From contig NZ_NINW01000037.1 of assembly GCF_002188465.1 (NCBI RefSeq), positions 1 to 64,000 on the forward strand: 64,000 bases of DNA. Reading direction: 5' to 3'. This DNA comes from Pigmentiphaga sp. NML080357. Its GTDB lineage: Bacteria > Pseudomonadota > Gammaproteobacteria > Burkholderiales > Burkholderiaceae_B. Both the position numbers and the translations under genes were made by a program. Under the pieces are notes generated by a model. The model had not been told where the DNA came from, searched no databases, and worked only from the letters and a program-made list of their open reading frames with translations. Shown one piece after another: positions 5,442-45,323 of this stretch; position 1 is the first letter of the stretch; every line of letters begins with the position of its first letter.

Positions 5442-5445
5442 GGCG

Positions 5446-31332: not shown

Positions 31333-32052
31333 TCAACTCGCCGCGGCCACGGCGCCGGCATCCAGCGCGGCAAGGATGTTTCGGGCTGTTCGCTCGATGT
31401 GCTCGGCCAGGATTTCCGCAGCCAGATCTTCCTTGCGGTCCAGCGTCGCGTCCACCAGCGAACGGTGCTCCTGGGCAACGTCGCGGTCGAACGGCTGGTA
31501 GGCCAGGAATAGGCGCCGGTAGCGCGCGCTGAAATGCTGGAGCGAATCGCAAACCATCAGGGCCAGGGGCATGCGGCACGCTGCCAGCAAAGCCAGGTGG
31601 AACTCCCGGTGATGGGCCTCCCATTCGTCCACGCCGCCGCCATCCTTCTGCTCCGGACGTTCGTAGCGAGACAGCCGGTGGTGGGTCAGGACGATTCCGT
31701 CCTCCCAATCGCGGCCGCCATGCCGGATGGACTCCCGCAAGGCCATGGGTTCCAGCGTGGACTGAAGCTTCGCCACCTCCAGCAGGTTTTCGCGCGACAC
31801 GGGCGCGACCTTGAATCCCTTCTTGTCCTCGTTGACCACGAAGCCCTCGGTCGCCAGTCTGGCCAGGGCCTCGCGCAACGGGGAAAGGCTTACGCCGAAG
31901 TCTCCCTTGAGTTCTTCGATGGAAAGTCTGGCACCGGGAGGACGCCGTCCGGAAACGATGTCGTTGCGTAACCGGGTCGCGATCGCGCTCGCGAAATTCT
32001 GTCCCGTGCTCGGAGCCGGCTGCCGCGCCGGCAAGACCGATGCCAGTTTCAT
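31333..32052 (-). CDS. GntR-family transcriptional regulator (FCD subfamily)
   Basis: A 239-residue repressor-type protein. The N-terminal winged helix (about 12-75) has the GntR pattern (LRNDIVSGRRPPGARLSIEELKGDFGVSLSPLREALARLATEGFV). The C-terminal all-helical FCD ligand domain carries candidate metal-binding residues in the EWEAHHREFH and HRSLV helices. The start at 32052 is favoured because AGGAG precedes the ATGATG; ATG at 32064 lies too close. It faces the catabolic operon across a 118-base AT-rich gap with repeated boxes, so it most likely controls that operon in response to its substrate. Confidence 0.9.
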   Translation of the reverse strand: MKLASVLPARQPAPSTGQNFASAIATRLRNDIVSGRRPPGARLSIEELKGDFGVSLSPLREALARLATEGFVVNEDKKGFKVAPVSRENLLEVAKLQSTLEPMALRESIRHGGRDWEDGIVLTHHRLSRYERPEQKDGGGVDEWEAHHREFHLALLAACRMPLALMVCDSLQHFSARYRRLFLAYQPFDRDVAQEHRSLVDATLDRKEDLAAEILAEHIERTARNILAALDAGAVAAAS

Positions 32053-32106
32053 CATGCTCCTCATCTTTTGGTCTCATCGTAACACGAGGCAAGAATCATC
32101 TTTCTG

Positions 32107-32112
32107 TTGACA
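32107..32112 (+). promoter_or_regulatory. Candidate -35 box of the catabolic operon
   Basis: TTGACA, a perfect sigma-70 -35 hexamer, lies directly before the first 12-bp box in an AT-rich gap. A -10 at normal spacing would fall in the A-rich AAAAAT around 32130, which is a weak match. Promoter strength may thus depend on the regulator. Confidence 0.45.
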
Positions 32113-32113
32113 G

Positions 32114-32125
32114 ATAATCGATTAT
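32114..32125. promoter_or_regulatory. Candidate GntR operator box 1
   Basis: ATAATCGATTAT is a perfect 12-bp palindrome that sits immediately downstream of TTGACA. A near copy with one mismatch lies 47 bases further on. Its place between the GntR gene and the operon it faces makes it the natural operator. Confidence 0.6.
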
Positions 32126-32160
32126 TCTAAAAAATCTCCGAAAAATCGAAAAATAAAAAA

Positions 32161-32172
32161 ATCATCGATTAT
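32161..32172. promoter_or_regulatory. Candidate GntR operator box 2
   Basis: ATCATCGATTAT differs from box 1 at one base. It overlaps the first possible start codon of the fused hydrolase (ATG at 32171). The Shine-Dalgarno-like GGAGAAGGA (32173-32181) lies after that ATG and before an in-frame TTG at 32183, so the box may in fact lie in the 5' leader. Confidence 0.55.
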
Positions 32173-33706
32173 GGAGAAGGAATTGAAAGCCGACGCCTAT
32201 CGCGATTTATCGGACGCGCAGCCCCTCCTTTCGCTGGCGGCCCGAGTGGACGTCGCCCACACGGCCGTGCTGGTCATCGACATGCAGAACGATTTCTGCG
32301 CCTCCGGCGGTTATGTCGAACGGGTCATCGGCAAGGACGTCGCGGCATGCGGGGCCATCGTCCCCCGGCTCCAATCCCTGATCGGCGCCGCGCGCGACCA
32401 CGGCGTCCCCGTCTTCTGGCTGCGAGCCTGCTACCGGCCCGACCTGCTGCCTGCATCCATGCGCACCAAGCTGGCCGAGCAAGGCATCACTGACGTCTGC
32501 TGCGACCGCGACACCTGGGGCTACGACTGGTACGGCGTCCAGCCGCTGCCCGGCGAACTGGTAGTGGAAAAGCACAGCTACGACGGCTTCGTCGGCACCA
32601 CGCTCGAACACGAACTGCGCGACCGCGGCATCCGCACCCTGGTCTTCGCGGGCGTCCAGACCAACATCTGCGTCGAAGCCACGCTGCGGCACGCGAACGC
32701 CCTGGGGTTCCATTGCGTCGTGCCCGAGGACTGCGTGGCCTCGCACACGCAGCCCGCGCACGACGCCACGCTGAACAACGTCCGTTTCCTGCTCGGCGAC
32801 GTGACCCGGCTGGACGACCTCGCGTCTCATTGGAAGACCTCGCCGCCGCACGTGTATCTCGACTACACGCAGGAGGAACTGGATCGCGCCTATGACCAGC
32901 GCGCCTGGGCCGACAACCGGGACGCCATGCTGGCCTGGTACGCGCAGGCCAGCGCCAGCGCCCGCGAGGAATATCCGCACCACCGGCACGTCCCCTATGG
33001 CCCGGGCCCCCACGAGACCCTGGACATCTTTCCGGCGCAGCGGCAAGGCGCGCCCATCCACGTCCATGTGCACGGCGGCGGCTGGCGCAATCTCAGCAAG
33101 GACGACGAGTCCTTCCTGGCCCGCACCGTGGTTCGCGCGGGCGGCGTGCTGGTGGTGCTGGACTTTTCGCTGATACCCGAGGTGCGCCTGCCCGAGATGA
33201 TCGCCCAGACCCGCCGCGCGCTGGCCTGGGTCCGGGCCAAGGCCGCCCGCTTCGGCGGAGACCCGGACCGCATCCACCTGTCGGGCCACTCGTCCGGCGC
33301 GCACATGGCCGCGGTCCTGGCCACCACCGACTGGGAGTCCTTGCACCTGCCCGCCGACCTGGTCAAGAGCGCGCTGCTGATCAGCGGCATGTACGACCTG
33401 CATCCCGTGATGCTCAGCGCCCGCAGCGACTACGTCAAACTCCAGCCGGACGAGATCGAGCGCTACAGCCCGATCCGGCACCTGTGCCGCCTGAACTGTC
33501 CGGCGGTCGTCGCGATCGGCGACCGCGAAAGTCCCGAATTCCAGCGGCAGGCGCGCGACTTCGTCCGCGCCGCGCAGGAACAGGACAGGCAGGTGGAGCT
33601 GATGCAGCTGCCCGCCACGAATCACTACGAAATCGTGACCCACCTGAACGCCCCCGACTCCGCCCTTTCCCAGGCCGCGCTGCGGTTGATGGGCCTGTCG
33701 GGTTGA
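32171..33706 (+). CDS. Fused isochorismatase-like amidase and alpha/beta hydrolase
   Basis: A 511-residue two-enzyme fusion. Residues about 30-215 are a cysteine hydrolase of the isochorismatase superfamily with the triad Asp37 (VLVIDMQNDF), Lys134 (VVEKHSYDGF) and Cys167 (TNICVEATLRHA); sequence around it resembles ureidoacrylate amidase RutB. Residues about 270-511 are an alpha/beta hydrolase of kynurenine-formamidase/esterase type with the oxyanion motif HGGGW (His301), nucleophile Ser374 (GHSSG), acid Asp451 or Glu453 and His485. Both halves look active. The expected chemistry is hydrolysis of two carbon-nitrogen or ester bonds in succession. ATG 32171 lacks a Shine-Dalgarno; TTG 32183, with GGAGAAGGA upstream, may be the true start. 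It is the first gene of the operon. Confidence 0.88.
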   Translation: MEKELKADAYRDLSDAQPLLSLAARVDVAHTAVLVIDMQNDFCASGGYVERVIGKDVAACGAIVPRLQSLIGAARDHGVPVFWLRACYRPDLLPASMRTKLAEQGITDVCCDRDTWGYDWYGVQPLPGELVVEKHSYDGFVGTTLEHELRDRGIRTLVFAGVQTNICVEATLRHANALGFHCVVPEDCVASHTQPAHDATLNNVRFLLGDVTRLDDLASHWKTSPPHVYLDYTQEELDRAYDQRAWADNRDAMLAWYAQASASAREEYPHHRHVPYGPGPHETLDIFPAQRQGAPIHVHVHGGGWRNLSKDDESFLARTVVRAGGVLVVLDFSLIPEVRLPEMIAQTRRALAWVRAKAARFGGDPDRIHLSGHSSGAHMAAVLATTDWESLHLPADLVKSALLISGMYDLHPVMLSARSDYVKLQPDEIERYSPIRHLCRLNCPAVVAIGDRESPEFQRQARDFVRAAQEQDRQVELMQLPATNHYEIVTHLNAPDSALSQAALRLMGLSG

Positions 33707-33792
33707 ATGCCGCCACCGCGAAGGAGGAACTTGCCCACCCACTGACCCAGTAGCCCTGCTGCTTTCCCCATCATTACGTGAAAGGACTGAAC

Positions 33793-34950
33793 ATGCTTGA
33801 AGGATTCAAGATTTATGATGCAGATGCCCACGTTCTAATGACCCCGGAAATGTGGGAAACCCTTCCCAAACAGTACTGGCTGCGCCGCCCGCGGCCGGTA
33901 AAGTTCGGCGATGGCCATGAGCTCGGCAACTGGGGCACGGCGTGGCTGGTGGATGGCCGCATCGAGCCGCACCCGTTCGGACCCGGCACCCACGCCGCCA
34001 ACACCCCCGGCATGGTGCTGGAGGAATATGGCGCCAACCGCGCGCGGGCCGGCGACTTCACCGCCTTCTCCCTTCCCGTCGGCTGTGTCACGCTGGGCAA
34101 CGTCGCGGACCGGCTCACCGCCATGGACAAGCTGGGCATCGACGTCCAGGTCCTGTTCCCCAGCACGATATACGCCACCATTGCCGCGGACGCGACGCTG
34201 GAAGGGGAGCTCTTCCGCGCCTACAACCGCTATATCGGCACGCGCTGCCGGGATGCCGCCAAGCGCCTGCGCTGGGTCGGCCTGCTCCCGATGCGGGACG
34301 CCGAGCAAGCCAGGCTCGCCATGAGCGAAATGGTCTCCATGGGCGCGGCGGCCGCCGTCGTGTTCGGGACCGTGGGCGACAGGATGCTCTCGCACCCGAG
34401 CTTCGCGCCGATATGGGACGAGTTCTCGCGCACCGGGCTGCCCCTCTGCGTGCACATGGCCATGAGCTTTCCGCCGCTGGCCCAGCTGTGCGAGTCGATC
34501 CAGGACGCCAACATGATAGGCAAGGCCATGCCCGCGCAACTGGCCTTCATGGCCATGGCCGGCCACGGCATGCTGGACAAATACCCCAGCCTCAAGGTCG
34601 CTTTCCTGGAGTTCGGCGGCGAATGGATCTTCTATTCGGTGGGACGCATGAAGCAGTACGCCGAGGTCAACAAGGGCCGCATGGCCGATCCCAGCATGCT
34701 GCCCAAGAGCGACGTGGAAGACCTGGTGAAGTCGGGGCGCATCTACCTGGGCCCCGAATCCAGCGACGCCATGCTGCCGCACGAGCTCAAGCTGCTGGGC
34801 GACGGGCAACTCCTCTATTCCTCGGATTTCCCTCATGGCGAAGGACGGGACAACGCCGCGATGGAGATCATCGAGCGCCAGGACCTCACCAAGGAGCAGA
34901 AGCGCAAGTTCCTGTACGACAACGCGGCCAACTTCTACGGGGAGCCCTGA
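33793..34950 (+). CDS. Amidohydrolase-2 family protein (decarboxylase-like)
   Basis: A 385-residue TIM-barrel protein of the amidohydrolase-2 group that includes ACMSD, gamma-resorcylate and dihydroxypicolinate decarboxylases. It opens with YDADAHV (Asp11-x-His13 in place of the usual HxH). It has a CVHMAM histidine near the middle, FLEFGGEW, and SSDFPHGEG near the end with the conserved metal aspartate. AAAGGA precedes the ATG at 33793; GTG at 33778 is less likely. In context, non-oxidative decarboxylation of a ring acid or its cleavage product is the best guess, but hydrolysis cannot be excluded. Confidence 0.82.
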   Translation: MLEGFKIYDADAHVLMTPEMWETLPKQYWLRRPRPVKFGDGHELGNWGTAWLVDGRIEPHPFGPGTHAANTPGMVLEEYGANRARAGDFTAFSLPVGCVTLGNVADRLTAMDKLGIDVQVLFPSTIYATIAADATLEGELFRAYNRYIGTRCRDAAKRLRWVGLLPMRDAEQARLAMSEMVSMGAAAAVVFGTVGDRMLSHPSFAPIWDEFSRTGLPLCVHMAMSFPPLAQLCESIQDANMIGKAMPAQLAFMAMAGHGMLDKYPSLKVAFLEFGGEWIFYSVGRMKQYAEVNKGRMADPSMLPKSDVEDLVKSGRIYLGPESSDAMLPHELKLLGDGQLLYSSDFPHGEGRDNAAMEIIERQDLTKEQKRKFLYDNAANFYGEP

Positions 34951-35040
34951 TACACGGAGCGAAAGGCGTGGCGCGCCGCGAGGCATCCGGCCTGCGGCGC
35001 GCCCACCGGTAAGGAGAAACGTCACTCCAGGAGAGATTCC

Positions 35041-36024
35041 ATGAAGCCGTTCCACCATCGCCTTGCCCGATATTCCCTCGTGCTGCTGCCCCTGGCCGCC
35101 CACGGCGCAGCCTGGGCCCAGAACAATGCCTATCCGTCCCGACCCATACGCATCGTGAATCCCTACGGGGCCGGCGGCTTGGGAGACGTCAGCTTCCGGC
35201 TGATCGCGCCGCTGATGGAAAAGCAGCTCGGGCAGCCGCTCGTCATCGAGAACAAGCCCGGCGCCTCCGGCAACCTGGGCGCCGCGGACGTGGCGCGCGC
35301 CGCCCCGGACGGCTATACGCTGCTGCTGGGTGCCGTGAACAATTTCGCGACGAACCAGTATCTCTACCGCGACATGACCTTCGATCCGCTGACGGCGTTC
35401 GATCCCATCGCGCTGATCAGCAACGCGCCCACGATCGTCGTCGTCAATCCCGCCGTGCCGGCCCGCAGCCTGCGCGAACTGGCCGCCTACGCGAAGGAGC
35501 GGCCGGGCAAGGTGAACTTCGGCTCGCCGGGCATCGGCACCCCGCCCCATCTCGCGGCCGAGTTCTTCGCGAACCTGGCCAACGTCTCGATGACCCATGT
35601 CCCGTTCAATGGCTCGCCCCCCGTCGTGCTCGCCCTGCTGCGCAACGATGTCAACGTGGCCTTCTACACCGCCGGCCCCATCGCGGGCCCGCTCAAGGCC
35701 GGCACGATCCAGCCCATCGCGGTCGCGGCCAGCGAACGGCTCGACATCCTGCCCAACGTGCCGACCACCGCGGAAGCGGGCTTCGGCGCCCTGCAGACGG
35801 GCAGCTGGATAGGGCTGGCCGCGCCCAAGGGCACGGATCCCGCCGTGCTGGACAAGCTCAACGCGGCCGTCCGGCAGGCGCTGGCCGACCCGGAGGTGCG
35901 CAAGCGCTATGCGGAGATGGGCATGCTGACCGGCAATACCAGCCGCACGCAATTCTCGGCGCTCATCGACGCCGAGGCGACCCGGTGGAAGAAAGTGATC
36001 GCCGACGCGGGGATCGCGAAATGA
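35041..36024 (+). CDS. Bug/TctC-family periplasmic solute-binding protein
   Basis: A 327-residue tripartite-tricarboxylate-type binding protein. A signal peptide ends GAAWAQ. The typical YPSRPIRIVNPYGAGG opening, VIENKPGASGNLGA, and APDGYTLLLG follow, with GTPPHLAAEFF in the middle. Bug proteins bind small carboxylates or aromatic acids in the periplasm and are greatly expanded in Bordetella. No TctA or TctB membrane genes are nearby, as is common for orphan Bug genes. Placement inside the operon suggests it senses or captures the pathway's substrate. GGAGA lies upstream of the ATG. Confidence 0.93.
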   Translation: MKPFHHRLARYSLVLLPLAAHGAAWAQNNAYPSRPIRIVNPYGAGGLGDVSFRLIAPLMEKQLGQPLVIENKPGASGNLGAADVARAAPDGYTLLLGAVNNFATNQYLYRDMTFDPLTAFDPIALISNAPTIVVVNPAVPARSLRELAAYAKERPGKVNFGSPGIGTPPHLAAEFFANLANVSMTHVPFNGSPPVVLALLRNDVNVAFYTAGPIAGPLKAGTIQPIAVAASERLDILPNVPTTAEAGFGALQTGSWIGLAAPKGTDPAVLDKLNAAVRQALADPEVRKRYAEMGMLTGNTSRTQFSALIDAEATRWKKVIADAGIAK

Positions 36025-36043
36025 TCCTGGGCTGGCTCCGACC

Positions 36044-37036
36044 ATGCTGACGCTGACGCTTGCCTGCGCCGCCTATGACCGGACGCGGCCGCTGATCGAC
36101 GGGCGGGTCGCCATCGAAGGCGTCGAACTGCGGGCGACGACGCTGCACCCCGAGGCCGCCTTCGCGCGCGCGAAGGCGGCCGAGTTCGACCTGACCGAGC
36201 TGTCCTTGAGCGGCTACCTGCGCTCGCTGGATGCCGGGAAGCCGACCTATGTCGCGCTGCCGGTCTTTCCCTCGCGGGCCTTTCGCCACAGCGGCATCTA
36301 TGTCCATGCGGGCCGCGGCATCCGCTCGCCGGCCGACCTGCGCGGCAGGACCATCGGAACGCCGGACTACAAGACGACGGCCAACGTCTGGATCCGGGCT
36401 TTCCTGGCCCACGACCACGGCGTCCAGCCCCACGAAATGCAGTGGATGGAGGCCGCCATGGAAGCGGGCGAACCGGGGCCGGCCACCGCCACCGCCGTCC
36501 CGGGCGTCTCCATCCTGGCCCTGCCGGACCAGGACTTGTCCGGCATGCTGGCCCGTGGAGAGATCGACGCGGTCGTCGGCGCCAAGGTGCCGTCCTGCTT
36601 CGGCCCCGGGCAGGACGGCGTGGCCCGGTTGTTCCCCGATCATCAACGGGTTGAGCAGGACTACTACCGGCGCACCGGCTTCTTTCCCATCATGCATGTG
36701 CTGGGACTGCGGCGCGACCTGCACGAGCGCCATCCCTGGCTGGCCCAGGCGATCTGCCAAGGCTTCGAGGCCGCCCGGCGCATGGCGCTCCAGGACCTCC
36801 GGGACGTCTGCCAGCTGGCCGCCACCCTGCCCTGGGTCGTGGCGGAATACCAGCGCACGGTGGACCTGATGGGCGAGGACTACTGGCCGTACGGCCTGGA
36901 TGCCAACCGGGAGGTGCTGCAGGCCTTCGCGCGCTACCACTTCCAGCAGGGCTTGTCCGCCCGGCTGCACAGCCCCGGCGATTGGCTCGCCCCCGCGAAT
37001 TTTTCTTCGAACCGCGTCACCACGAGATCCGCATGA
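36044..37036 (+). CDS. 4,5-Dihydroxyphthalate decarboxylase-like protein
   Basis: A 330-residue protein without a signal peptide, in the periplasmic-binding-protein fold group that contains 4,5-dihydroxyphthalate decarboxylase (Pht5). The opening LTLACAAYDRTRPLIDGRVAIEGVEL, FDLTELSLSGYL, FPSRAFRHSGIYV and GTPDYKTTANVWIRAFL are characteristic. Known relatives decarboxylate 4,5-dihydroxyphthalate to protocatechuate; other members are uncharacterised. Its stop overlaps the ATG of the next hydrolase (ATGA), so the two are coupled. Decarboxylation of a dihydroxy ring acid before extradiol cleavage is inferred. Confidence 0.82.
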   Translation: MLTLTLACAAYDRTRPLIDGRVAIEGVELRATTLHPEAAFARAKAAEFDLTELSLSGYLRSLDAGKPTYVALPVFPSRAFRHSGIYVHAGRGIRSPADLRGRTIGTPDYKTTANVWIRAFLAHDHGVQPHEMQWMEAAMEAGEPGPATATAVPGVSILALPDQDLSGMLARGEIDAVVGAKVPSCFGPGQDGVARLFPDHQRVEQDYYRRTGFFPIMHVLGLRRDLHERHPWLAQAICQGFEAARRMALQDLRDVCQLAATLPWVVAEYQRTVDLMGEDYWPYGLDANREVLQAFARYHFQQGLSARLHSPGDWLAPANFSSNRVTTRSA

Positions 37037-37896
37037 ACGAACGCCCCGCACTCTACGACATCGAGGCCACGGTCCCCGATTTCCGCACCCACCTGCAGCG
37101 CTACGCCGAAGCCAGCCGGCTCACGCGCGAGCGACGGCCGACCCGGCTCGACCTTGCCTACGGCGAAGGAGCCGCGCACACGCTGGACGTCTATCTGGCG
37201 GACGCTCCCCACGCGCCCGTGGTGATCTACCTGCACGGCGGCGCCTGGAAAGGGTCGAGCAAATCGGACCGCGGCTTTCCCGCCGATACCTTCGGGCCGG
37301 CGGGCGCCATCTGGGTCTCCATGGAATATCCCCTGGCGCCCGCCGCGAGCGTGGACGACATGGTCGCGGCGGTACGCAAGGGCGTGGCCTGGGTCCATCG
37401 CCACGCGGCCTCCTTCGGCGGCGATCCCGGCCGCATCTTCCTTTGCGGCAACTCCGCGGGCGGCCATCTGGCCGGCATGGCGGCGGCCACCGACTGGGCG
37501 GCGCACGGCCTGCCGGCCGACCTCGTCAAGGGCATCACGACGGTGAGCGGTATCTTCGACATGCGGCCCATGGCCCGATCGCTGATGAACGAGTGGCTGC
37601 GCCTGGATGCGGAAAGCGCCGCGCGCAACAGCCCCCTCCTGCACCTGCCTCGCGTGGCCTGCCCCCTGGTCTGCGCCGTGGGGGAAAAGGAGTTGCCCGA
37701 ATTCATCGAGCAGTCCGCCGGCTATGCGCGGGCATGGGCCGCCGCGGGCTACCCCTCGCGCTTCATGCCCATGCCGGGCCATGACCATTTTTCCATCATC
37801 GACGAGCTCAACCGGCCCGACGGCCCGCTGCTGGCGGCGATGTTCGAACAGATCGGCCTTCGCAACCGCGGCGCCGCTTCCCGCGCCCACACCTGA
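37033..37896 (+). CDS. Alpha/beta hydrolase (kynurenine formamidase-like)
   Basis: A 287-residue cytoplasmic hydrolase. It has HGGAW (His68) for the oxyanion hole, the nucleophile Ser141 in GNSAG, Glu218 or Glu220 in GEKELPEF and His252 in GHDHFSII. Alignment by eye with the C-terminal half of the fused hydrolase (ATDW...LPADLVK..., SPL/SPIRHL, ELPEF/SPEF) shows the two are paralogues. The acid residue is Glu here and probably Asp there. Likely substrates are N-formyl amides or esters formed in the pathway. The start overlaps the previous stop by four bases. Confidence 0.87.
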   Translation: MNERPALYDIEATVPDFRTHLQRYAEASRLTRERRPTRLDLAYGEGAAHTLDVYLADAPHAPVVIYLHGGAWKGSSKSDRGFPADTFGPAGAIWVSMEYPLAPAASVDDMVAAVRKGVAWVHRHAASFGGDPGRIFLCGNSAGGHLAGMAAATDWAAHGLPADLVKGITTVSGIFDMRPMARSLMNEWLRLDAESAARNSPLLHLPRVACPLVCAVGEKELPEFIEQSAGYARAWAAAGYPSRFMPMPGHDHFSIIDELNRPDGPLLAAMFEQIGLRNRGAASRAHT

Positions 37897-37916
37897 ATAA
37901 AGGAGTAGCCCGAATC

Positions 37917-39080
37917 ATGAAACTGCATCTTCGCTCTTGCCTCGCATCATGCGTCCTGGCCGCCGCGGCCGCGCACGGCCCTGCGCATGCCGCCGACAAG
38001 CCCTTGAAGATCGGCGTCGTCACCGAGTTCTCCGGCACCTATGCCTCCGCCGGGCAGTCCATCGAAAGCGCGATGCGCGCCTACATGAAGCTCAACGGCG
38101 ACACCGTGGCCGGCCGCAAGGTCGAGCTCATCCTGCGCGACACCGGCGGCATCTCGCCCGAGAACGCGCGCCGCTACGCGCAGGAACTGGTCACCCGCGA
38201 CAAGGTCGACGCGCTGGTGGGCTTCAACTTCACCCCCAACGCGCTGGCCGCCGCGCCCATCGCCACCGCGGCCAAGACGCCGATGATCGCGCTCGCGGCC
38301 ACGGCCATCGTCACCGAGAAGTCTCCCTATATCGTGCGCACCGCGTTCACGCTCGGACAGACGTCGGCGCCCATGGCCACCTGGGCGGCCAGGAACGGCA
38401 TCAAGCGCGTATTCTCGCTGGTGTCCGACTACGGCCCCGGGCACGACGCCGCGCAGGCCTTCAAGGATGCGTTCACCGCCGCCGGCGGCCAGATGGCGGG
38501 CGAAATACGCATGCCCGTCAGCAGCATGGAATTCGCGCCCTTCCTGCAACGGGCCCGCGACGCGCGCGCCGACGCCATCTTCGTGTTCGTGCCGGGCAGC
38601 GAAGCCGCCATCGCCTTCATGAAGGCGTACAACGAACGCGGTTTCAAGCAAGCGGGCATTCGCCTGATCGGCACGGGCGACCTGGTCGACGACGACTCGC
38701 TGCCGGCCATCGGCGACGTCGCGCTGGATACCGTCACCGCCCACCACTACTCGGCCGCGCACGACTCCGACCTGAACCGCGGCTTCGTCAAGGCGGTCCA
38801 GGATCAGGGACGCAAGCGGCCCAACTTCATCGGAGTGGGCGCCTATGACGCCATGGCCGTCATCTACGCCGCGGTCAAGAAAACCGGCGGCGATACCGAC
38901 GGCGACAAGCTCGTCGCGGCGATGAAAGGACTCAAGCTCGACAGCCCGCGCGGCCCGATCTCGATCGACCCCGCCACGCGCGACATCGTGCAAGACATCT
39001 ACATCCGCAAAGTCCAGAAGGTCGGAGGCGAGCTCTACAACGTCGAGTTCGACAAGATCAAGGCCGTCAAGGCCCGCTAG
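37917..39080 (+). CDS. Branched-chain-type ABC transporter substrate-binding protein
   Basis: A 387-residue periplasmic protein of the LivJ/type I family. A signal peptide ends PAHA. The domain opens LKIGVVTEFSGTYASAGQSIESAMRAYMKLN and continues with VDALVGFNFTPNALAAAPIA and DAIFVFVPGSEA. Relatives in catabolic clusters bind aromatic acids rather than leucine. AAAGGAG lies upstream. Four importer genes follow directly, giving a complete system. Confidence 0.93.
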   Translation: MKLHLRSCLASCVLAAAAAHGPAHAADKPLKIGVVTEFSGTYASAGQSIESAMRAYMKLNGDTVAGRKVELILRDTGGISPENARRYAQELVTRDKVDALVGFNFTPNALAAAPIATAAKTPMIALAATAIVTEKSPYIVRTAFTLGQTSAPMATWAARNGIKRVFSLVSDYGPGHDAAQAFKDAFTAAGGQMAGEIRMPVSSMEFAPFLQRARDARADAIFVFVPGSEAAIAFMKAYNERGFKQAGIRLIGTGDLVDDDSLPAIGDVALDTVTAHHYSAAHDSDLNRGFVKAVQDQGRKRPNFIGVGAYDAMAVIYAAVKKTGGDTDGDKLVAAMKGLKLDSPRGPISIDPATRDIVQDIYIRKVQKVGGELYNVEFDKIKAVKAR

Positions 39081-39094
39081 CCAAAGGAGTCCGC

Positions 39095-39976
39095 ATGCTG
39101 ACCGACTTCGTCGGCGTGATCATCGATGGAACGTCGTACGGCGCCATGCTGTTCGTGATCGCGCTCGGATTGTCCATCACGCTGGGGTTGATGGGTTTCG
39201 TCAACCTCGCGCACACCGCCGTCGCCATGTTCGGCGGCTATTTCCTCGTTACGCTGGTCAACCAGTTGGCCTGGCCGTTCTTCGCGTCGGTGGCCGTGGT
39301 CGTGGCGGCGATCGCCCTGGCCAGCCTGGTGCTGGAACGCGTGGTCTATGCGCCCTTTTATCGCGCCACGGCGCTCGACCAGAGCCTCCTGACCTTCGGG
39401 TTGATGCTGATGGCCGGCGGCATCGTCCACTATTTCTGGGGGCCGTCGCAACAGGCGGTGCGGGTGCCCGAGTACCTGGACGGCCGCTGGTACCTGGGCG
39501 ATCTCAGCGTCTCCAAGTACAGGCTGATGCTGCTCGGCACGGGCCTGGCCTTGCTCGCCCTGCTGAACTGGGGACTCGACTCGACCCGCCTGGGCGCGAT
39601 GATCCGCGCCTCGGTCGACAACCAGCGCATCGCGGCCGCGATGGGCATACCGGTCAAGCGCGTATTCATGATCGCCTTCGCGATCGGCAGCGGGCTCGCG
39701 GCGCTGGGCGGCGCACTCGGGGCCGAGGTGCTGGGCCTGGATCCGGCCTTCGCCACGCGCACGCTGGTGCTGTGCCTGCTCGTGGTGGTGCTGGGCGGCG
39801 CCGGCTCGGTCAACGGCACCTTCTTCGCCGCCATGCTGCTGGGCATCTGCGACATCGGCAGCAAATACTACGTCCCCGAGTTCGGGGCCTTCATGATCTA
39901 CGTGCTCATGGCGCTGGTCCTGCTGTACCGGCCGCAAGGCCTCTACAGCCTCTTCGCGCGCAGGAGGGCCGCATGA
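39095..39976 (+). CDS. Branched-chain-type ABC transporter permease (LivH-like)
   Basis: A 293-residue inner-membrane permease with about eight helices. It has the LivH pattern DGTSYGAMLFVIALGLSITLGLMGFVNLAH at the start and the EAA-like loop MGIPVKRVFMIAFAIGSGLAALGG. It follows the binding protein by 14 bases with AAAGGAG, and its stop overlaps the ATG of the next permease. Confidence 0.94.
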   Translation: MLTDFVGVIIDGTSYGAMLFVIALGLSITLGLMGFVNLAHTAVAMFGGYFLVTLVNQLAWPFFASVAVVVAAIALASLVLERVVYAPFYRATALDQSLLTFGLMLMAGGIVHYFWGPSQQAVRVPEYLDGRWYLGDLSVSKYRLMLLGTGLALLALLNWGLDSTRLGAMIRASVDNQRIAAAMGIPVKRVFMIAFAIGSGLAALGGALGAEVLGLDPAFATRTLVLCLLVVVLGGAGSVNGTFFAAMLLGICDIGSKYYVPEFGAFMIYVLMALVLLYRPQGLYSLFARRRAA

Positions 39977-40959
39977 ACGGCAGCCCGCTGCGCCCCCTGC
40001 TGGACCGCTCGCGCTGGCGCGTGCCCGAGCTCGTGTTCTGGACGCTCGTCGTCGCGGCCTTCTTCGTCTTTCCCGATCACCGCAGCCTGGGCGCGCAAGT
40101 GCTGGTGACCGGCATCTTCGCGCTGTCGCTCGACATGCTGCTGGGCTACGCGGGCATCGTCACCCTGGGACATGCCGCGTTCTTCGGCGTGGGCGCGTTC
40201 ACCGCCGGCTGGCTCGGCAAGTACGGCTGGCACGAACCGGTCTCGGCGCTGGCCATCGCCGCCGCCGTCACGGCATGCGCGGGCGCGCTCGGCAGCCGGC
40301 TGGTCGTGCGGGGCACCGACCTGAGCCGGCTCATGGTGACGCTGGCCATCGGCCTCGTGCTGTACGAGGCCGCCAACAAGGCCACCGCGGTCACCGGCGG
40401 CATCGACGGCCTGCAAGGCATCGAGTTCGCGCCGCTGCTTGGCCTCTTCCCGTTCGACCTCATGGGATCGACCGCCTACGCATACGCGGCCATCGTGGCC
40501 TTCGTCACGCTCTACCTCGTGCGCAGGCTGGTCAATTCGCCCTATGGCCTGTCCCTGCATGCCACGCGCATGAACCGCCGGCGCGCGCTGGCCGTTGGCA
40601 TCGACGACGGCCGCACCCTGGCGATCTCCTACGTCGCCTCGGCGGCGGTGGCGGGCGTCGCGGGCGCGCTGACGACGCAGATCACGCAGTTCATCACCAT
40701 CGATGCGCTCGGTTTCGGGCGGTCGGCCGACATCCTGATCATCGCCGCGCTGGGCGGCGTGGGCTACCTGTACGGCGGCTTCATCGGCGCGCTGGTATTC
40801 GTCGTGGGCCGCGACCTGCTGTCCGGCATCAGCCCCGCCTATTGGCATTTCTGGCTGGGCCTGCTGCTGGTGCTCACCATCTTCTTTGCCCGCGGCGGCA
40901 TCATGGGCACCGCCGCACGGCTGGCCCGGCGCCTGGCGCACAAGGAGGCGCAACGATGA
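39973..40959 (+). CDS. Branched-chain-type ABC transporter permease (LivM-like)
   Basis: A 328-residue membrane permease, the LivM partner of the LivH-like protein. Several long hydrophobic helices surround LGYAGIVTLGHAAFFGVGAFTAGW and the cytoplasmic loop in which GIDDGRTLAISYVASAAVAGVAGAL lies. The ATG at 39973 overlaps the previous stop (ATGA), and its own stop overlaps the ATPase start, so the whole importer is translationally coupled. Confidence 0.94.
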   Translation: MNGSPLRPLLDRSRWRVPELVFWTLVVAAFFVFPDHRSLGAQVLVTGIFALSLDMLLGYAGIVTLGHAAFFGVGAFTAGWLGKYGWHEPVSALAIAAAVTACAGALGSRLVVRGTDLSRLMVTLAIGLVLYEAANKATAVTGGIDGLQGIEFAPLLGLFPFDLMGSTAYAYAAIVAFVTLYLVRRLVNSPYGLSLHATRMNRRRALAVGIDDGRTLAISYVASAAVAGVAGALTTQITQFITIDALGFGRSADILIIAALGGVGYLYGGFIGALVFVVGRDLLSGISPAYWHFWLGLLLVLTIFFARGGIMGTAARLARRLAHKEAQR

Positions 40960-41714
40960 TACAGACCGTGGACCTGTGCAAGCGCTTCGGCGCGCTGGTG
41001 GCGACCGACAACGTGAACCTGTCGCTCGCTCCCGGCGACCGGCATGCGCTGATCGGCCCGAACGGCGCGGGCAAGACGACCTTCATCAACCTGCTGACCG
41101 GCATGCTGCGCCCGACCTCGGGCCGCGTGCTGCTGGACGGCGCGGACGTGACCGCGGCGCCGCCCGACAAACGGGTGGACCTGGGGCTGGTGCGCACTTT
41201 CCAGATCAATACGCTGTTCCTGGATATGACCGTGCTGGAGGCGGTCACGCTGGTCGTGCTGGCGCGCACCGGAGCCGTCCGCTCGCTGTTCGGGTCGCTG
41301 CGCCGGCATGAGCCGGCGGCCACCGAGGCCTGGGAATTGCTCGAGCGCATCGGCCTGGCGCAGGACGCGCATCGGCCCACCCGGCAGCTCGCCTATGGCA
41401 GGCAGCGGCTGGTGGAAATCGCGCTCGCGCTGGCGCGCAAGCCCAAGGTGCTGCTGCTGGACGAACCGGCGGCCGGCGTCTCGGCGGCCGACAGCCGCCA
41501 TGTCTTCGCGGTCCTGGATCGACTGCCCCAGGACATCGCCATCCTTTTGATCGAACACGACATGAACCTCGTCTTCCGTTTTGCGCAACGCATTTCGGTG
41601 CTCGTCGCCGGCCGCCTCATCGCCACCGGGCTACCTGGCGACATCGCCCGCGATCCCCGCGTGCGCGAGGCCTACCTCGGGCAGGCGGCGCCCCTGGAGG
41701 CGGCATGCGCATGA
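40956..41714 (+). CDS. Branched-chain-type ABC transporter ATPase (LivG-like)
   Basis: A 252-residue nucleotide-binding subunit. Walker A is GPNGAGKTT (about 35-43); a Q-loop lies in VRTFQINTLF. The ABC signature is degenerate (LAYGRQRLVEIALAL, lacking the usual LSGGQ). Walker B is VLLLDEPAAG and the H-loop is IEHDMNLVF. The LivG-type C-terminal sequence VREAYLG is present. It starts inside the LivM stop. Confidence 0.93.
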   Translation: MIQTVDLCKRFGALVATDNVNLSLAPGDRHALIGPNGAGKTTFINLLTGMLRPTSGRVLLDGADVTAAPPDKRVDLGLVRTFQINTLFLDMTVLEAVTLVVLARTGAVRSLFGSLRRHEPAATEAWELLERIGLAQDAHRPTRQLAYGRQRLVEIALALARKPKVLLLDEPAAGVSAADSRHVFAVLDRLPQDIAILLIEHDMNLVFRFAQRISVLVAGRLIATGLPGDIARDPRVREAYLGQAAPLEAACA

Positions 41715-42430
41715 GCGCTACGGACAGCCTGCTGCAACTGGAGCACGTGCGCGCCGGCTACGGCGACGCGATGGTGCTGGACGATCTCTCGTTCTCCGTG
41801 GGCGCCGGCGACGGTCTGGCGGTGCTCGGACGCAATGGCGTGGGCAAGACCACCCTGCTCGAAACCCTGATGGGCAACACGCGCCTGACGGCAGGGCGCA
41901 TCCTCTGGCAAGGCCGCGACCTCGCCAGGCTGGACGCCTGCCAGCGATCTCGCGCCGGGCTGGGCTGGGTGCCGCAGGAGCGAGAGGTGTTCGCCTCGCT
42001 GACCGTCGAGGAAAACCTGACCGTGGTGGCCTGCCGCGGCCCGTGGACGCTGGACCGGGTATACGGTCTGTTTCCGCGACTGCGCGAGCGGCGCAACAAC
42101 CTGGGCAACGAACTGTCCGGCGGAGAACAGCAGATGCTGGCGATAGGCCGCGCGCTCATGACCAACCCGCGCCTGCTCCTTCTGGACGAACCCATGGAAG
42201 GCCTGGCTCCTATCGTCGTCGAGGAACTCGGCGCCGCCATCATTGCCCTGCACACGCAGGAAGGCATGAGCACCATCGTGGTCGAGCAACACCCGGTCAT
42301 CGCCCTGGCCATGACCTCGACCGCCATCATCCTGGACCGCGGCCGCATCGTGCATCGGTCCTCGAGCGAAGAACTGCGGGCGTCGCCCGAGATACTCGAC
42401 CGCTGGCTCAATGTTGCCGCGGCCGAGTGA
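41711..42430 (+). CDS. Branched-chain-type ABC transporter ATPase (LivF-like)
   Basis: A 239-residue ATPase. Walker A is GRNGVGKTT, the signature is LSGGEQQM, Walker B is LLLLDEPMEG and the H-loop histidine is in VEQHPV. The ATG at 41711 overlaps the LivG-like stop in the ATGA pattern used throughout this operon; ATG 41705 is an alternative. It completes a five-part importer placed between the hydrolases and the dioxygenase. Confidence 0.93.
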   Translation: MSATDSLLQLEHVRAGYGDAMVLDDLSFSVGAGDGLAVLGRNGVGKTTLLETLMGNTRLTAGRILWQGRDLARLDACQRSRAGLGWVPQEREVFASLTVEENLTVVACRGPWTLDRVYGLFPRLRERRNNLGNELSGGEQQMLAIGRALMTNPRLLLLDEPMEGLAPIVVEELGAAIIALHTQEGMSTIVVEQHPVIALAMTSTAIILDRGRIVHRSSSEELRASPEILDRWLNVAAAE

Positions 42431-42465
42431 ACGACTTATCGTTTTCATCGAATCAAGGAGCCAGC

Positions 42466-42771
42466 ATGGGAATCCGAGACACCGACAAGACCCTGCCTTC
42501 CAACCGCATGGTGTTCGAGCTGCGGCGCGACGAGCAGAAGTACCTCGCCTTCAAAGAGGACCTGGAAGCCACCATGGCGGCCTACGGCCTGGGCGAGGAA
42601 GAGAAACGCGCCTGGCGCGCCATAGACATCGAGGCCCTCGGCGCGATGGGCATGCACCCCTATTTCCTGCCCCAGGTCTCGCGCCTGTTCAAGGGCGGCT
42701 CGCGCAACCACAACGACAGCGACGCGGCCCGCCTGTATGCCGAGAAAATGGGTATCGCATCCAAGGACTGA
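42466..42771 (+). CDS. Extradiol dioxygenase small (LigA-like) subunit
   Basis: A 101-residue helical protein resembling the alpha subunit of protocatechuate 4,5-dioxygenase. Recognisable stretches are SNRMVFELRRDEQKYLAFKEDLEATMAAYGL and the C-terminal ALGAMGMHPYFLPQVSRL. LigA is about 140 residues, so this is a compact form. It lacks metal ligands and in LigAB-type enzymes shapes the active site. AAGGAG precedes the ATG. It is followed 14 bases later by the catalytic subunit. Confidence 0.87.
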   Translation: MGIRDTDKTLPSNRMVFELRRDEQKYLAFKEDLEATMAAYGLGEEEKRAWRAIDIEALGAMGMHPYFLPQVSRLFKGGSRNHNDSDAARLYAEKMGIASKD

Positions 42772-42785
42772 CTCCGGAGACTCGC

Positions 42786-43634
42786 ATGGCAAAGATCGTA
42801 GCAACCCTGGGCGTGGCCCACGCTCCCGGCGTCACCGGCTGGATAGACAAGGCGCCGCAGCATGAGCAGGACGGCGTATTGGCCGGCTATGCCAGGTTCC
42901 AGCAGTTGATGGACGAGGTGCGTCCGGACGTGGTCATCGGCATCGCCAACGACCATCTGCTGAACTTCTCGCTCGACAACATTCCGGACTTCTGCGTGGG
43001 CATCGGCGAACAATGGGCCGGCCCGGCGCCTTGGTTCCGCGACTGGCTCAACATCCCGGACTACACGGTGGCCGGCCACCGCGAACTCGGGCGCGCGCTC
43101 GTGCGCGAATCGGCCAAGGCGGGCATCAACCATGCCTTCGCCGACAAGCTCTTGTTCGACGACAACTGGTCGGTGCCGCTCAAGTTCCTGTTCCCGCGCT
43201 ACGACGTGCGCTTCGTCCCCATCCACATGAATCCCATCGTGCCGCCGGTGCCCAGCGCGGCGCACTGCTACGCGGTGGGAGAGACCATCGCGCGCATCGT
43301 CCAGCAATTCCCGTCGGACGAGCGGGTGGTGGTCATGGGTACGGGCGGCCTCTCGCACGATCCCGGCGGCAAGGACTACTTCACGGTGCACGAGGAATTC
43401 GACCGCTGGTTCCTCGAATTGATGGAATCCGGCGATGCCGAGCGCGTCAAGCGCGAACTCACCTTCGACAAGCTGCTGACCGGGGGCGACGGCGGCGCGG
43501 GCGAATTGCTGGCATGGGTCGTCGCCATGGGCGCGGCCGGCGTATGCGGCAATACGCGTGCGGAAACCGTGTTCTACGTGCCCTCGGTGCCGATGCGCTG
43601 CGGCATGGGTGGAGTCTACTGGCGGCTCGATTGA
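42786..43634 (+). CDS. Class III extradiol dioxygenase catalytic (LigB-like) subunit
   Basis: A 282-residue LigB-type ring-opening dioxygenase. Candidate Fe(II) ligands are His12 (LGVAHAPG) and His57 (IANDHLLNF), with Glu in NTRAETVFY near residue 260. The catalytic His191 lies in TGGLSHDPGG. The family cleaves vicinal diols beside one hydroxyl, including protocatechuate, gallate and some dihydroxypyridines. The usual aldehyde dehydrogenase, hydratase and aldolase genes of protocatechuate 4,5-cleavage are missing from this operon and amidase-type genes are present instead, so the substrate is probably not protocatechuate. It is the last gene of the operon. Confidence 0.9.
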   Translation: MAKIVATLGVAHAPGVTGWIDKAPQHEQDGVLAGYARFQQLMDEVRPDVVIGIANDHLLNFSLDNIPDFCVGIGEQWAGPAPWFRDWLNIPDYTVAGHRELGRALVRESAKAGINHAFADKLLFDDNWSVPLKFLFPRYDVRFVPIHMNPIVPPVPSAAHCYAVGETIARIVQQFPSDERVVVMGTGGLSHDPGGKDYFTVHEEFDRWFLELMESGDAERVKRELTFDKLLTGGDGGAGELLAWVVAMGAAGVCGNTRAETVFYVPSVPMRCGMGGVYWRLD

Positions 43635-43647
43635 CGGGCGCGCCGGG

Positions 43648-43848
43648 CTAGGCGAACCTGCGCAACATCCACGCGGCGCAGGCCGTCAAGGCCAGCGTCC
43701 ACAACAGCAGGATCGCCACGGCCCCCGCCACGCTGCGGGGCGGGGCAGCCTGCAGCTCTCGCTCCTCGGCCTGCCTGGCCACCCACAGCGTGAACGCGTC
43801 TCGCTTGATCCGGCGCGCCCACGCGCGGAGCGTGGCAAGGACTGTCAT
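43648..43848 (-). CDS. Short DUF1232/YkvA-like membrane protein
   Basis: A 66-residue protein with an amphipathic N-terminus (LATLRAWARRIKRDAFTLWVARQ) and one transmembrane helix (VAGAVAILLLWTLALTACAAWML). The N-terminus resembles that of YkvA/DUF1232 proteins, which normally continue with a PIDLIPD motif that is absent here. It may be a shortened derivative or an independent small protein. It follows yihY on the same strand by 11 bases and could be co-transcribed. Confidence 0.5.
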   Translation of the reverse strand: MTVLATLRAWARRIKRDAFTLWVARQAEERELQAAPPRSVAGAVAILLLWTLALTACAAWMLRRFA

Positions 43849-43859
43849 GGCCGCGGCGG

Positions 43860-45323
43860 TCAGGACGCGCGCAGGCGACGCAGTCTCTCGTCCTGCACGG
43901 CTTCGGTCGCCTCTTCTTCGGCCTCGGCCTCCCGCTCGCCCTGGTCCGGCTCCAGCTCCAGTTCGCGATCCAGGGCCAGTTCCGCCTCGACTTCCTCCGG
44001 CCGTTGTTTCAAGGCCTCGGCAATGGTGACCGAACCGCTTTCCCAGGCCGCGTTCACCGCCCGCAGCAGCATGGGATCATCGGCCAGCGGGCCCCGGTCC
44101 AGCAGCAGCCGGTCCACCACCGGCGCCAAGGTCGCCACCGTCGGGTCGCACACCATGGCCCACCGCTCGCGGGCGCTGCCGGCATCGCCGATGCGCGCGA
44201 TGTAGCCAATGCTGGCCAGGGTATCGAGCACCACCATCAGTTCGTCGTGATGCAGGTTCAGCCGGCTGCGCAGCGATAGCGTGCTCAGCCCCGGCGGGTT
44301 GCGGTCCCGCACGGAAGACAGGGCGCGCAGGATGGACAAGGCATCGACGAAGGGCCGCCCCGGCCGCCGCACCGTTTCCCAGCGCCCCATGCGGATCAGG
44401 GGCAGGCTGGCCGCCAGGGTGGCGCCGAACAGCGTCACGAGCCACGACAGGTAGACCCAAATCAGGAAGATCGGCAGCGTGGCGAAGGCGCCGTACAGCA
44501 CGGTGTAGGTGGGAAAGCGGGTGAGGTAGAAGGCGAAGCCGGATTTCATGATTTCCAGCACGATGGCGGCCGCGAAACCGCCCGTCATCGCGTCGCGTGT
44601 CTCGACATGGCGGTTGGGGACCACCATGAACAGAGCGCCGAAGGCCAATCCAGTCAGAATCAGCGGAATGAAGGACAGCAGCACGCCGATGGGCGCGGGC
44701 ACGTCTCCCACCAGCCCCATGGATTCGCGCGCCAGGAAGGACGTGGCCCACAGGCTGGCGCCGATCAGCACCGGCCCCAGCGTGAGCGTGGCCCAGTAGA
44801 TCAGCACCCGCTGCGCCAGGGGCCGGCCCTTGCGCACATGCCAGATCTCGTTCAGCGCCTTGTCGATGGTGAGCATCAGCGACACGGCGGTGATCATCAG
44901 GAAGATGCCGCCCACCGCCGTCAGCCGGCTCGCCTTCTGCGCGAACTGGTTGAGGTAGTCCATGATGTTGTCGGCAACGGACGGCGGCATCAGGTTGCTC
45001 ACCAGGAACGCCTCCAGGGCCCCCTGGAATTCGCGGAACAGCGGAAAGGCTGTGAACAGCGCCAGCGCCACCGCCAGCAGCGGCACCATGGAGAGCACGG
45101 AGGTAAAGGTCAGGCTGGAGGCGACTTGCGTAATGCGCTCCTCGGCCGCGCGCTGCAGGGCGAACCTCAAGAGCCTGCCCACGCGCGCCGGCCAGGACTC
45201 GTGCGCCAGCAGATGGCGGCGCAGCGCCGCGGTGCGGGATTCGGGACGGGCGGGCCCCGCTGCGGAAGAGGACGGCGTCGGTGACGTGGCGGAAATCGGC
45301 ATCTCGGAAGCGTTCTGGACCAT
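43860..45323 (-). CDS. YihY/BrkB-family inner-membrane protein
   Basis: A 487-residue protein with about six transmembrane helices of the YihY (formerly ribonuclease BN) family. The opening ITQVASSLTFTSVLSMVPLLAVALALFTAFP and the TIDKALNEIWHVRKGRP motif are diagnostic. A long soluble C-terminal part (about 300-487) has winged-helix-like character and a Glu-rich end. The exact function of the family is not established. The start is uncertain: ATG 45323 or ATG 45302, neither with a strong Shine-Dalgarno. It diverges from wrbA across only 21 bases. Confidence 0.88.
   Translation of the reverse strand: MVQNASEMPISATSPTPSSSAAGPARPESRTAALRRHLLAHESWPARVGRLLRFALQRAAEERITQVASSLTFTSVLSMVPLLAVALALFTAFPLFREFQGALEAFLVSNLMPPSVADNIMDYLNQFAQKASRLTAVGGIFLMITAVSLMLTIDKALNEIWHVRKGRPLAQRVLIYWATLTLGPVLIGASLWATSFLARESMGLVGDVPAPIGVLLSFIPLILTGLAFGALFMVVPNRHVETRDAMTGGFAAAIVLEIMKSGFAFYLTRFPTYTVLYGAFATLPIFLIWVYLSWLVTLFGATLAASLPLIRMGRWETVRRPGRPFVDALSILRALSSVRDRNPPGLSTLSLRSRLNLHHDELMVVLDTLASIGYIARIGDAGSARERWAMVCDPTVATLAPVVDRLLLDRGPLADDPMLLRAVNAAWESGSVTIAEALKQRPEEVEAELALDRELELEPDQGEREAEAEEEATEAVQDERLRRLRAS

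Follow-up and report, generated by a model that had tools for sequence, protein, structure and literature searches.

A probable GntR-linked operon of Pigmentiphaga that joins a LigAB-type dioxygenase to amide hydrolases, a candidate pathway for N-heterocycle breakdown

Introduction

Which compound is opened by a LigAB-type dioxygenase whose genes stand in one series with amide hydrolases, decarboxylases and an importer? The series in question lies in a 64,000-nucleotide stretch (the window) of contig NZ_NINW01000037.1 of Pigmentiphaga sp. NML080357, whose genome comprises 5.73 Mb in 59 contigs. It consists of twelve plus-strand genes facing a minus-strand GntR/FCD regulator, all in frame on the strand given in Table 1, in the order isochorismatase–hydrolase fusion, Amidohydro_2, TctC, dihydroxyphthalate-decarboxylase-like, alpha/beta hydrolase, LivKHMGF, LigA, LigB. 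An earlier note, made from the sequence alone, had read the locus as a pathway for a carboxylated dihydroxy N-heterocycle or a related aromatic amide. Its account of the layout agrees with ours: every gene that it named was confirmed as an open reading frame (ORF), as was the strand, the facing GntR regulator is present, and the four-base overlaps were found at four of the 11 junctions, the remaining seven being gaps of 14–90 bases. All listed genes are there, but a TctC-type receptor had been overlooked.

The reading that we favour, and to which we give an even chance, is that of a catabolic operon under GntR control. Its substrate would be a dihydroxylated N-heterocycle, in all likelihood a hydroxypyridone or dihydroxypyridine, with carboxylated forms as an option. 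The system would resemble the PydA and Rut systems in its logic while being a member of neither family. We favour this reading because of the linkage of a core across genera and classes, the amide-type neighbours, an altered residue in the LigB pocket (string FDDN, by which we name the clade), the BLAST matches of a PydA and a candidate operator of its own.

A conserved core with exchangeable neighbours

Relatives were found with window proteins as probes, and 24 clade loci were read with their flanks. The conserved core is LigA, LigB and an isochorismatase-type amidase, usually with GntR. The GntR probe matched in 15 of the 24 loci and not in six (L013, L022, L023, L024, L025, L027); in L009, L011 and L014 its position would fall outside the stretch read. 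Two loci read only with ±1.5 kb stand outside this count, L046 (G442), where LigA, isochorismatase and GntR were seen, and L034 (G537), where LigA only was seen; L052, a repeat of L019, was dropped. Outside Pigmentiphaga the core, with a free isochorismatase, occurs in Ramlibacter, in Pusillimonas and relatives, and in metagenome-assembled genomes of Betaproteobacteria, Alphaproteobacteria and Rhodospirillales; it is also present on a plasmid of Bosea, with a LigB 51% identical to that of the window. Clade members were detected in 19 of 250 genomes of the family at E 1e-60, including 10 of the 11 of the genus. Phylum-wide, the clade profile at E 1e-50 matched three of 398 genomes, namely the window genome and those of L089 and L090; the latter two were rejected as FDDN members, their pocket strings being DHG and DHA, which leaves none besides the window genome. 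The literature searched yielded no description of the LigAB–isochorismatase cassette or of the FDDN change.

Pigmentiphaga loci of one and the same chromosomal site, the window among them, make up seven of the 24 and are consequently not independent. This site is flanked by chorismate synthase/CBS genes on one side and by a BrkB gene on the other. The full operon order is found in three other Pigmentiphaga loci (L009, L011, L014), at 89–100% identity per gene, and is partly kept in L010 (87–97%). Variants at the site range from isochorismatase–LigA–LigB only (L012 and L013), through the fusion, Amidohydro_2, TctC, decarboxylase-like gene and LigAB (L010), to the same set plus hydrolase and importer (L009, L011, L014 and the window); L015 and L053, flanked by the same BrkB gene, combine isochorismatase, hydrolase, importer and LigAB but lack the decarboxylases. 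The Amidohydro_2 gene is missing from L012, L013, L015 and L053, and the decarboxylase-like gene is present in five of the 22 clade loci probed (the window, L009, L010, L011 and L014). Since the same site carries the core with or without decarboxylases and importer, these are accessory modules around the core. Their absence from several same-site relatives also removes the word 'carboxylated' from the core properties of the substrate, where the earlier note had placed it. With its order kept in other Pigmentiphaga loci and its core recurring in other genera and classes, the gene series is more than a chance assembly.

The isochorismatase lies within the LigAB cluster in 20 of the 24 loci, a count that includes L009 and L011 on the strength of its final residues, the only part inside the locus, and L014 through the fused partner alone. 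Three loci (the Corynebacterium plasmid L027, L049 and L050) have the formamidase FmdA instead, and L024, near a contig end, has neither, so that an amide-cleaving enzyme stands beside LigB in 23 of 24. The control comprised the 12 other LigB-family proteins of the window genome, read in 11 regions; it gave one isochorismatase and no FmdA, for probes drawn from the clade loci and flanks of ~7 kb against ~10 kb for most clade loci; the sole control isochorismatase (L072) is 30% identical and on the other strand. Further amide-type neighbours are a cyclase-family hydrolase (L049), creatininase-family proteins (L016, L026, L051) and BD-FAE hydrolases (L015, L025, L053). RidA is found close to the cassette in L016 (from which the probe came), L021 (77%), L022 (76%) and L051 (72%), and the window genome has a match (74%) on another contig; the creatininase probe from L016 had no match in that genome at E 1e-10. 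Because several unrelated amide-hydrolase families adjoin this LigB clade, ring opening followed by amide hydrolysis, already suggested in the earlier note, is supported indirectly.

Several individual loci deserve mention here. The LigB of the metagenome bin L024 shares 60% identity with the window LigB, and the Klebsiella pneumoniae label of the bin may be misassigned. A single ORF of L050 (9955–11217) contains LigB and LigA in this order, the LigA part having been recognized by eye, with FmdA next to it. An ORF of ~150 aa after the isochorismatase is conserved in the five loci L016–L020, and its L017 copy scores just above the cut-off for carboxymuconolactone decarboxylase (CMD).

The altered pocket of the LigB-type subunit

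A PF02900 domain and a LigA partner place the window protein in the class III extradiol (LigB) superfamily. H12, H57, H191 and E240 are invariant across 22 aligned rows and comprise the two His and one Glu ligands of iron and the catalytic-base His, following the numbering of the LigB iron ligands. The structure model (pLDDT 90.6) matches DesB (3wku) with Z 35.5 and LigAB (1bou) with Z 34.2 over 262–272 residues, compared with Z ~26 for the aminophenol dioxygenases in the structural aligner's list.

The clade differs at a second pocket histidine. According to PMC3962378, this residue (LigB His127, DesB His124) is a conserved feature of type II dioxygenases that DesB cannot do without: His124 holds the 4-OH of the substrate, and no activity was detectable once it had been mutated to Phe. 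The equivalent residue is Asp (Asp126 in the window) within the string FDDN in all 17 clade rows of the tree, none of which has His, and each of the 19 loci from the family-wide search has FDDN as well. Among the 12 other LigB-family proteins of the window genome the residue is His in ten, Tyr and Thr in the pair of L077, and Asp in none. We interpret the Asp as fitting the pocket to a ring that bears N-H/C=O.

The FDDN clade is firm, with support of 100/98 to 100/100 in three trees and 99/99 in another. Rows close to those kept (L010–L014, L018, L053) were omitted throughout, L005 was omitted after the first tree, and CnbCa and L068 from some trees (L068 from the topology-test tree). Against the NCBIfam class III models the window LigB scores 143, 121, 114, 109 and 102 bits, the cut-offs being 290, 317, 299, 412 and 837. 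A protocatechuate/gallate identity was rejected on the pocket residue, these scores and the gene context, although kinship with that group is not rejected by the tree (p-AU 0.335).

Amidase, hydrolases and accessory proteins

Isochorismatase-type cysteine hydrolases use an Asp-Lys-Cys triad. The amidase part of the fusion protein (residues 31–215) has both the PF00857 domain and a candidate triad by position, D37, K134 and C167. The hydrolase part, of the lipase/esterase/arylformamidase kind, occupies about residues 285–414, with HGGGW at 301 and GHSSG at 372 as candidate catalytic motifs. The best PDB chains for the amidase part are biuret hydrolase (E 5e-26) and RutB (E 1.6e-23), which are also its best NCBIfam relatives; an assignment as RutB or biuret amidohydrolase was rejected at 110.3 bits against a cut-off of 378 and 114.4 against 370, respectively.

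Among PDB chains the second half of the fusion is closest to Lipase 1 (E 5e-35), with kynurenine formamidase lower (E 2e-13). The free alpha/beta hydrolase is 38% identical to the fused one, and for both the best NCBIfam match is a hormone-sensitive-lipase model, below its cut-off. Their closest relatives are lipases, not formamidases, and arylformamidase (kynurenine formamidase) was rejected as an identity for either. Since lipases are better matches than formamidases for both BD-FAE proteins of the window, a deformylase role for them is only a guess. That amidase and hydrolase form one protein in the window and are separate neighbours in L015 and L053 suggests that the two are functionally linked.

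Among the accessory proteins, the Amidohydro_2 product has distant PDB matches to PtmU3 (E 1.9e-14) and gamma-resorcylate decarboxylase (E 2.7e-12), of the gamma-resorcylate/ACMSD group. The sole PDB match at E 0.01 of the decarboxylase-like protein is 4,5-dihydroxyphthalate decarboxylase, and on this similarity its name is sound. No match to it was obtained in PHROGs, none of the top matches of a literature search was about it, and a structure model with pLDDT 38 was discarded. For LivF the best NCBIfam match is UrtE, whose cut-off of 286 bits it misses with 229. Importer genes 50–79% identical to those of the window stand with the cassette in L015, L053, L020 and L051 too.

Table 1. Features of the operon and its control region (window coordinates)
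Feature	Position	Strand	Evidence
GntR/FCD-type regulator, divergent from operon	31333..32064	-	PF00392 E 1.3e-16, PF07729 E 2.8e-16
Sigma-70-like promoter TTGACA-17-AAAAAT	32107..32135	+	consensus match only, 10/12; 1 found vs shuffle mean 0.2
Candidate operator 1, palindrome ATAATCGATTAT	32114..32125	.	inside spacer of sigma-70-like promoter
Candidate operator 2, ATCATCGATTAT	32161..32172	.	adjoins and overlaps start codon of fusion gene
Isochorismatase-type cysteine amidase + BD-FAE/alpha-beta hydrolase, one 511-aa ORF	32171..33706	+	PF00857 E 2.1e-43, PF20434 E 2.6e-19, PF07859 E 1.4e-18
Amidohydro_2 protein, accessory	33778..34950	+	PF04909 E 2.7e-18
TctC-type receptor, accessory	35041..36024	+	PF03401 E 4.9e-70
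4,5-Dihydroxyphthalate-decarboxylase-like protein, accessory	36044..37036	+	PDB 9jp7 E 1e-81, 278 bits, residues 2-321 of 330
Free BD-FAE/alpha-beta hydrolase	37033..37896	+	PF20434 E 3.1e-20 on ORF starting upstream at 36982
LivK-type binding protein	37917..39080	+	PF13458 E 5.2e-71
LivH-type permease	39095..39976	+	PF02653 E 8.2e-29
LivM-type permease	39973..40959	+	PF02653 E 3.8e-31 on enclosing ORF
LivG-type ATPase	40956..41714	+	PF00005 E 6.1e-30 on enclosing ORF
LivF-type ATPase	41711..42430	+	PF00005 E 2e-32, ORF from 41705
LigA-type small subunit, 101 aa	42466..42771	+	PF07746 E 1.4e-8
LigB-type catalytic subunit, FDDN clade	42786..43634	+	PF02900 E 5.4e-34; H12, H57, H191, E240 kept; D126

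A candidate operator in the control region

Across the 5.73 Mb genome the pattern ATNATCGATTAT has just two occurrences, and these fall in the gap between GntR and the fusion gene. Upstream of GntR, the observed count of AATCGA/TCGATT was reached by <1% of 2000 shuffles in 10 of 12 clade loci, in a test in which the stretches were picked by eye, the shuffles preserve single-base content only and the palindrome is scored twice; the enrichment is weaker in L016 (3.9% of shuffles) and L051 (6.2%), which miss the <1% level. Because the candidate operators are confined to this gap and the motif is enriched upstream of GntR in relatives, the regulator is probably a dedicated local repressor, a role predicted from sequence. 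It reached no equivalog cut-off in NCBIfam. Prediction of promoters and terminators across 42300–44000 found none.

Comparison with known systems

The signatures of PydA are DDHFENH and a C-terminal EWICGM, as given in PMC3637104. A motif search found PydA in none of 399 genomes of the order and in two of 268 of the family, of which one (L060) is a match in an unrelated frame and the other (L059/L061) is real. In L061 (8338–9328, G524) the gene is split over two reading frames, and the first 246 residues were used; intact copies were found on rhizobial plasmids. The window system and PydA have in common a LigB-family ring opener with an adjoining GntR-type regulator, the loss of the pocket histidine (Asn, YGNN, in four of four PydA rows) and a C-terminal CGM, present in the window LigB and in three of four PydA rows (in one of them in another frame); hydrolase and RidA genes are also found within the clusters of L063 and L064. 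The two differ in that the window LigB is 33% identical to PydA, has ANDHLLN and DDN in place of DDHFENH and GNN, and has a separate LigA, whereas PydA measures 333 aa with no LigA gene annotated beside it in L063/L064; the hydrolases and importer are not the same either. Tested against the signatures, the window protein reads ANDHLLNF and PMRCGMGG, with only the CGM part shared, and it was rejected as a PydA on motifs, size, identity and the separate LigA. The parallel that the earlier note drew with PydA has some support short of identity: besides the histidine loss and CGM, the best BLAST matches of the L061 PydA in our set are clade members, at 37% to the window LigB over 221 residues, versus 29–34% for gallate/protocatechuate/CarB-type rows and own-genome kin.

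The clusters of L063 and L064 lie on plasmids of rhizobia from Leucaena and Acaciella, where PydA is accompanied by an alpha/beta hydrolase, RidA, an FAA-hydrolase-family protein and a pyruvate carboxylase.

With LigAB the window enzyme shares the LigA + LigB make-up, and with LigAB and DesB the fold and the four conserved residues; it differs in its 24–26% identity in the structure matches, in the Asp at the site of DesB His124/LigB His127 and in the amide hydrolases of its operon. The Rut pyrimidine pathway employs an isochorismatase-type amidase (RutB) and a RidA-type enamine deaminase (RutC), the ring being opened by RutA. The likeness of the operon to it lies in the logic of amidase plus RidA and in the amidase part, which scores far below the equivalog cut-offs of these relatives, and the difference in the ring opener, which is LigAB. 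The nicotinate route with NicX, NicD and NicF is similar in its logic of an N-formyl amide, a deformylase and a maleamate amidase. Its ring opener differs, NicX being aminopeptidase-like and not a LigB according to PMC7356986. The 2-aminophenol 1,6-dioxygenases of the Amn/Cnb type are likewise class III enzymes whose cluster also contains RidA and an amidase-family gene, but have DYG at the key site. The window LigB gave no BLAST match to the catalytic beta subunit CnbCb at E 1e-3 and a weak one to the alpha subunit CnbCa (E 2e-4, 88 residues); an identity as aminophenol dioxygenase was rejected on the former result and on the presence of Asp, not Tyr, at the pocket site.

Discussion

In the pathway that we propose, the Liv-type importer, perhaps with the TctC receptor, would take up the compound. 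Where the accessory genes are present, the dihydroxyphthalate-decarboxylase-like and Amidohydro_2 proteins may strip carboxylates from the ring. LigA/LigB would then open the ring with O2, a step supported by family, fold and the conserved iron-site residues. The recurrent amide-type neighbours point to cleavage beside the ring nitrogen, which would yield an enamine with a formyl or oxalyl group on the nitrogen. Removal of this acyl group might fall to the isochorismatase-type amidase, perhaps together with the alpha/beta hydrolases, with RutB and PydB as precedents. The enamine would finally release ammonia, aided by a RidA-type deaminase encoded elsewhere in the genome. A dioxygenase, an amide hydrolase and optionally RidA would be needed because an N-acyl enamine must lose its acyl group and then ammonia. 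By analogy, the logic of PydA–PydB–RidA and of RutB–RutC probably recurs here with different families filling the amidase role. We infer the substrate class, product and order of steps, while gene content, linkage, residue changes and fold are direct observations.

More tentatively, the FDDN clade could represent a separate catalytic subclass of LigAB type that has members in Proteobacteria and Actinobacteria, is specialized in hydroxypyridones or related N-heterocycles and is served by exchangeable amide hydrolases, and in which Asp (in PydA Asn) takes the place of the pocket histidine regarded as the catalytic acid; we hold this to be possible rather than probable. PMC7356986 names hydroxypyridine ring openers of unrelated families (NicX aminopeptidase-like, KpiC amidohydrolase-like, PydA LigB-like). 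Since KpiC and NicX illustrate such unrelated origins, a further LigB lineage would be a variation on a known theme. If the proposal is true, FDDN would be a sequence marker for locating such pathways, and the clade a natural test of extradiol catalysis without the residue whose removal abolishes detectable DesB activity. Thanks to the minimal cassette and its own candidate operator, a single strain would suffice to test the question directly.

A number of observations weigh against the N-heterocycle reading. The topology tests lend no support to kinship with PydA (p-AU 0.197, the free tree being 14.8 log units better) and do not reject kinship with the protocatechuate/gallate group, at the value quoted above; moreover, the PydA rows owe their label to motif, size and context rather than to enzyme data. 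A LigA/LigB pair of Rhodococcus (L028, 11741–12828) has Glu (FDEN) at the pocket site, and its LigB is 36% identical to that of the window, nearer than PydA, yet the amidase, FmdA, creatininase and RidA probes all lack a match among its neighbours, which are annotated as a Rieske protein, a ferredoxin, hydrolases and an amidohydrolase. Because L028 lost the histidine without amide-hydrolase or RidA neighbours, this loss alone is no proof of an N-ring. Nor are such neighbours confined to the clade: in the control L073 (1987–9400) hydantoinase A/B-like genes directly precede a DHS-type LigB and a RidA-like gene, in the control L077 LigB-family genes are paired with RidA- and ABH-like genes, and RidA also accompanies aminophenol dioxygenase. 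The operon has no ring hydroxylase, and its alpha/beta hydrolases match lipases best. Finally, the Ramlibacter cassette (L016) adjoins an aldehyde dehydrogenase, 60% identical to an aminophenol-cluster enzyme, and a 2-keto-4-pentenoate hydratase above its NCBIfam cut-off, and the joining of these two genes to the cassette suggests a carbocyclic meta-pathway. In L021 and L051 there are also 3-HAO-like cupins, at distances from the cassette of ~2 kb and ~8 kb, respectively.

In L077 itself (7175–9017) the window genome encodes an aminophenol-dioxygenase-type pair with DYG and DTG at the pocket site and a RidA-like gene nearby.

The Ramlibacter neighbours, RidA among them, the cupins and the Rhodococcus pair would be accommodated by a benzenoid substrate with a side amide or amine (of the aminophenol, hydroxyanthranilate or catechol amide type), the carbocycle of which would be cleaved by LigAB while the amidase trims the amide or deaminates an aminomuconate-type product. 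An amidase has a role in the aminophenol cluster, which by annotation contains an amidase-family gene and RidA, and the Amidohydro_2 neighbour in Bosea is ACMSD-like (E ~1e-25), its best match being the unnamed hydrolase 2f6k (E 1.6e-41). However, the window LigB does not match CnbCb, which has Tyr at the site, the genome already has the separate pair of L077, and to our knowledge the aminophenol route needs no amidase plus second hydrolase. We regard a benzenoid substrate as unlikely.

The importer–decarboxylase block and the LigAB–amidase block might also be unrelated pathways under one promoter, as could be argued from L012 and L013, with the amidase–LigAB core alone, and from L010, with decarboxylases but no importer. 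The importer, however, joins the cassette in four further loci too, and the amidase–hydrolase fusion speaks for a functional link, which makes this alternative improbable. Least probable of all is an ordinary phthalate/protocatechuate meta-cleavage, in which 4,5-dihydroxyphthalate is decarboxylated to protocatechuate and opened by LigAB: the co-occurrence of the decarboxylase-like gene with LigA and LigB, the fold and a kinship that the tree does not reject are in its favour, but the LigB lacks the histidine on which detectable DesB activity depends and falls below every class III cut-off, the decarboxylase-like gene was seen in just the five loci named above of the 22 probed, no further gene of the protocatechuate 4,5-pathway appeared in Pfam/NCBIfam scans of the operon, and three other LigB-type proteins of the window genome already group with gallate/protocatechuate enzymes.

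Other pairs of ring openers and amidases were noticed in passing. On the minus strand of L051 (17884–19040), a 3-HAO-like cupin gene overlaps a second isochorismatase gene. The window genome itself contains, on the plus strand of L084 (C34:204000-222000, positions 2465–9416), a series of Liv-type genes, an amidase-signature protein, RidA and a 3-HAO-like cupin, which is possibly a second ring-opening and amide-hydrolysing pathway.

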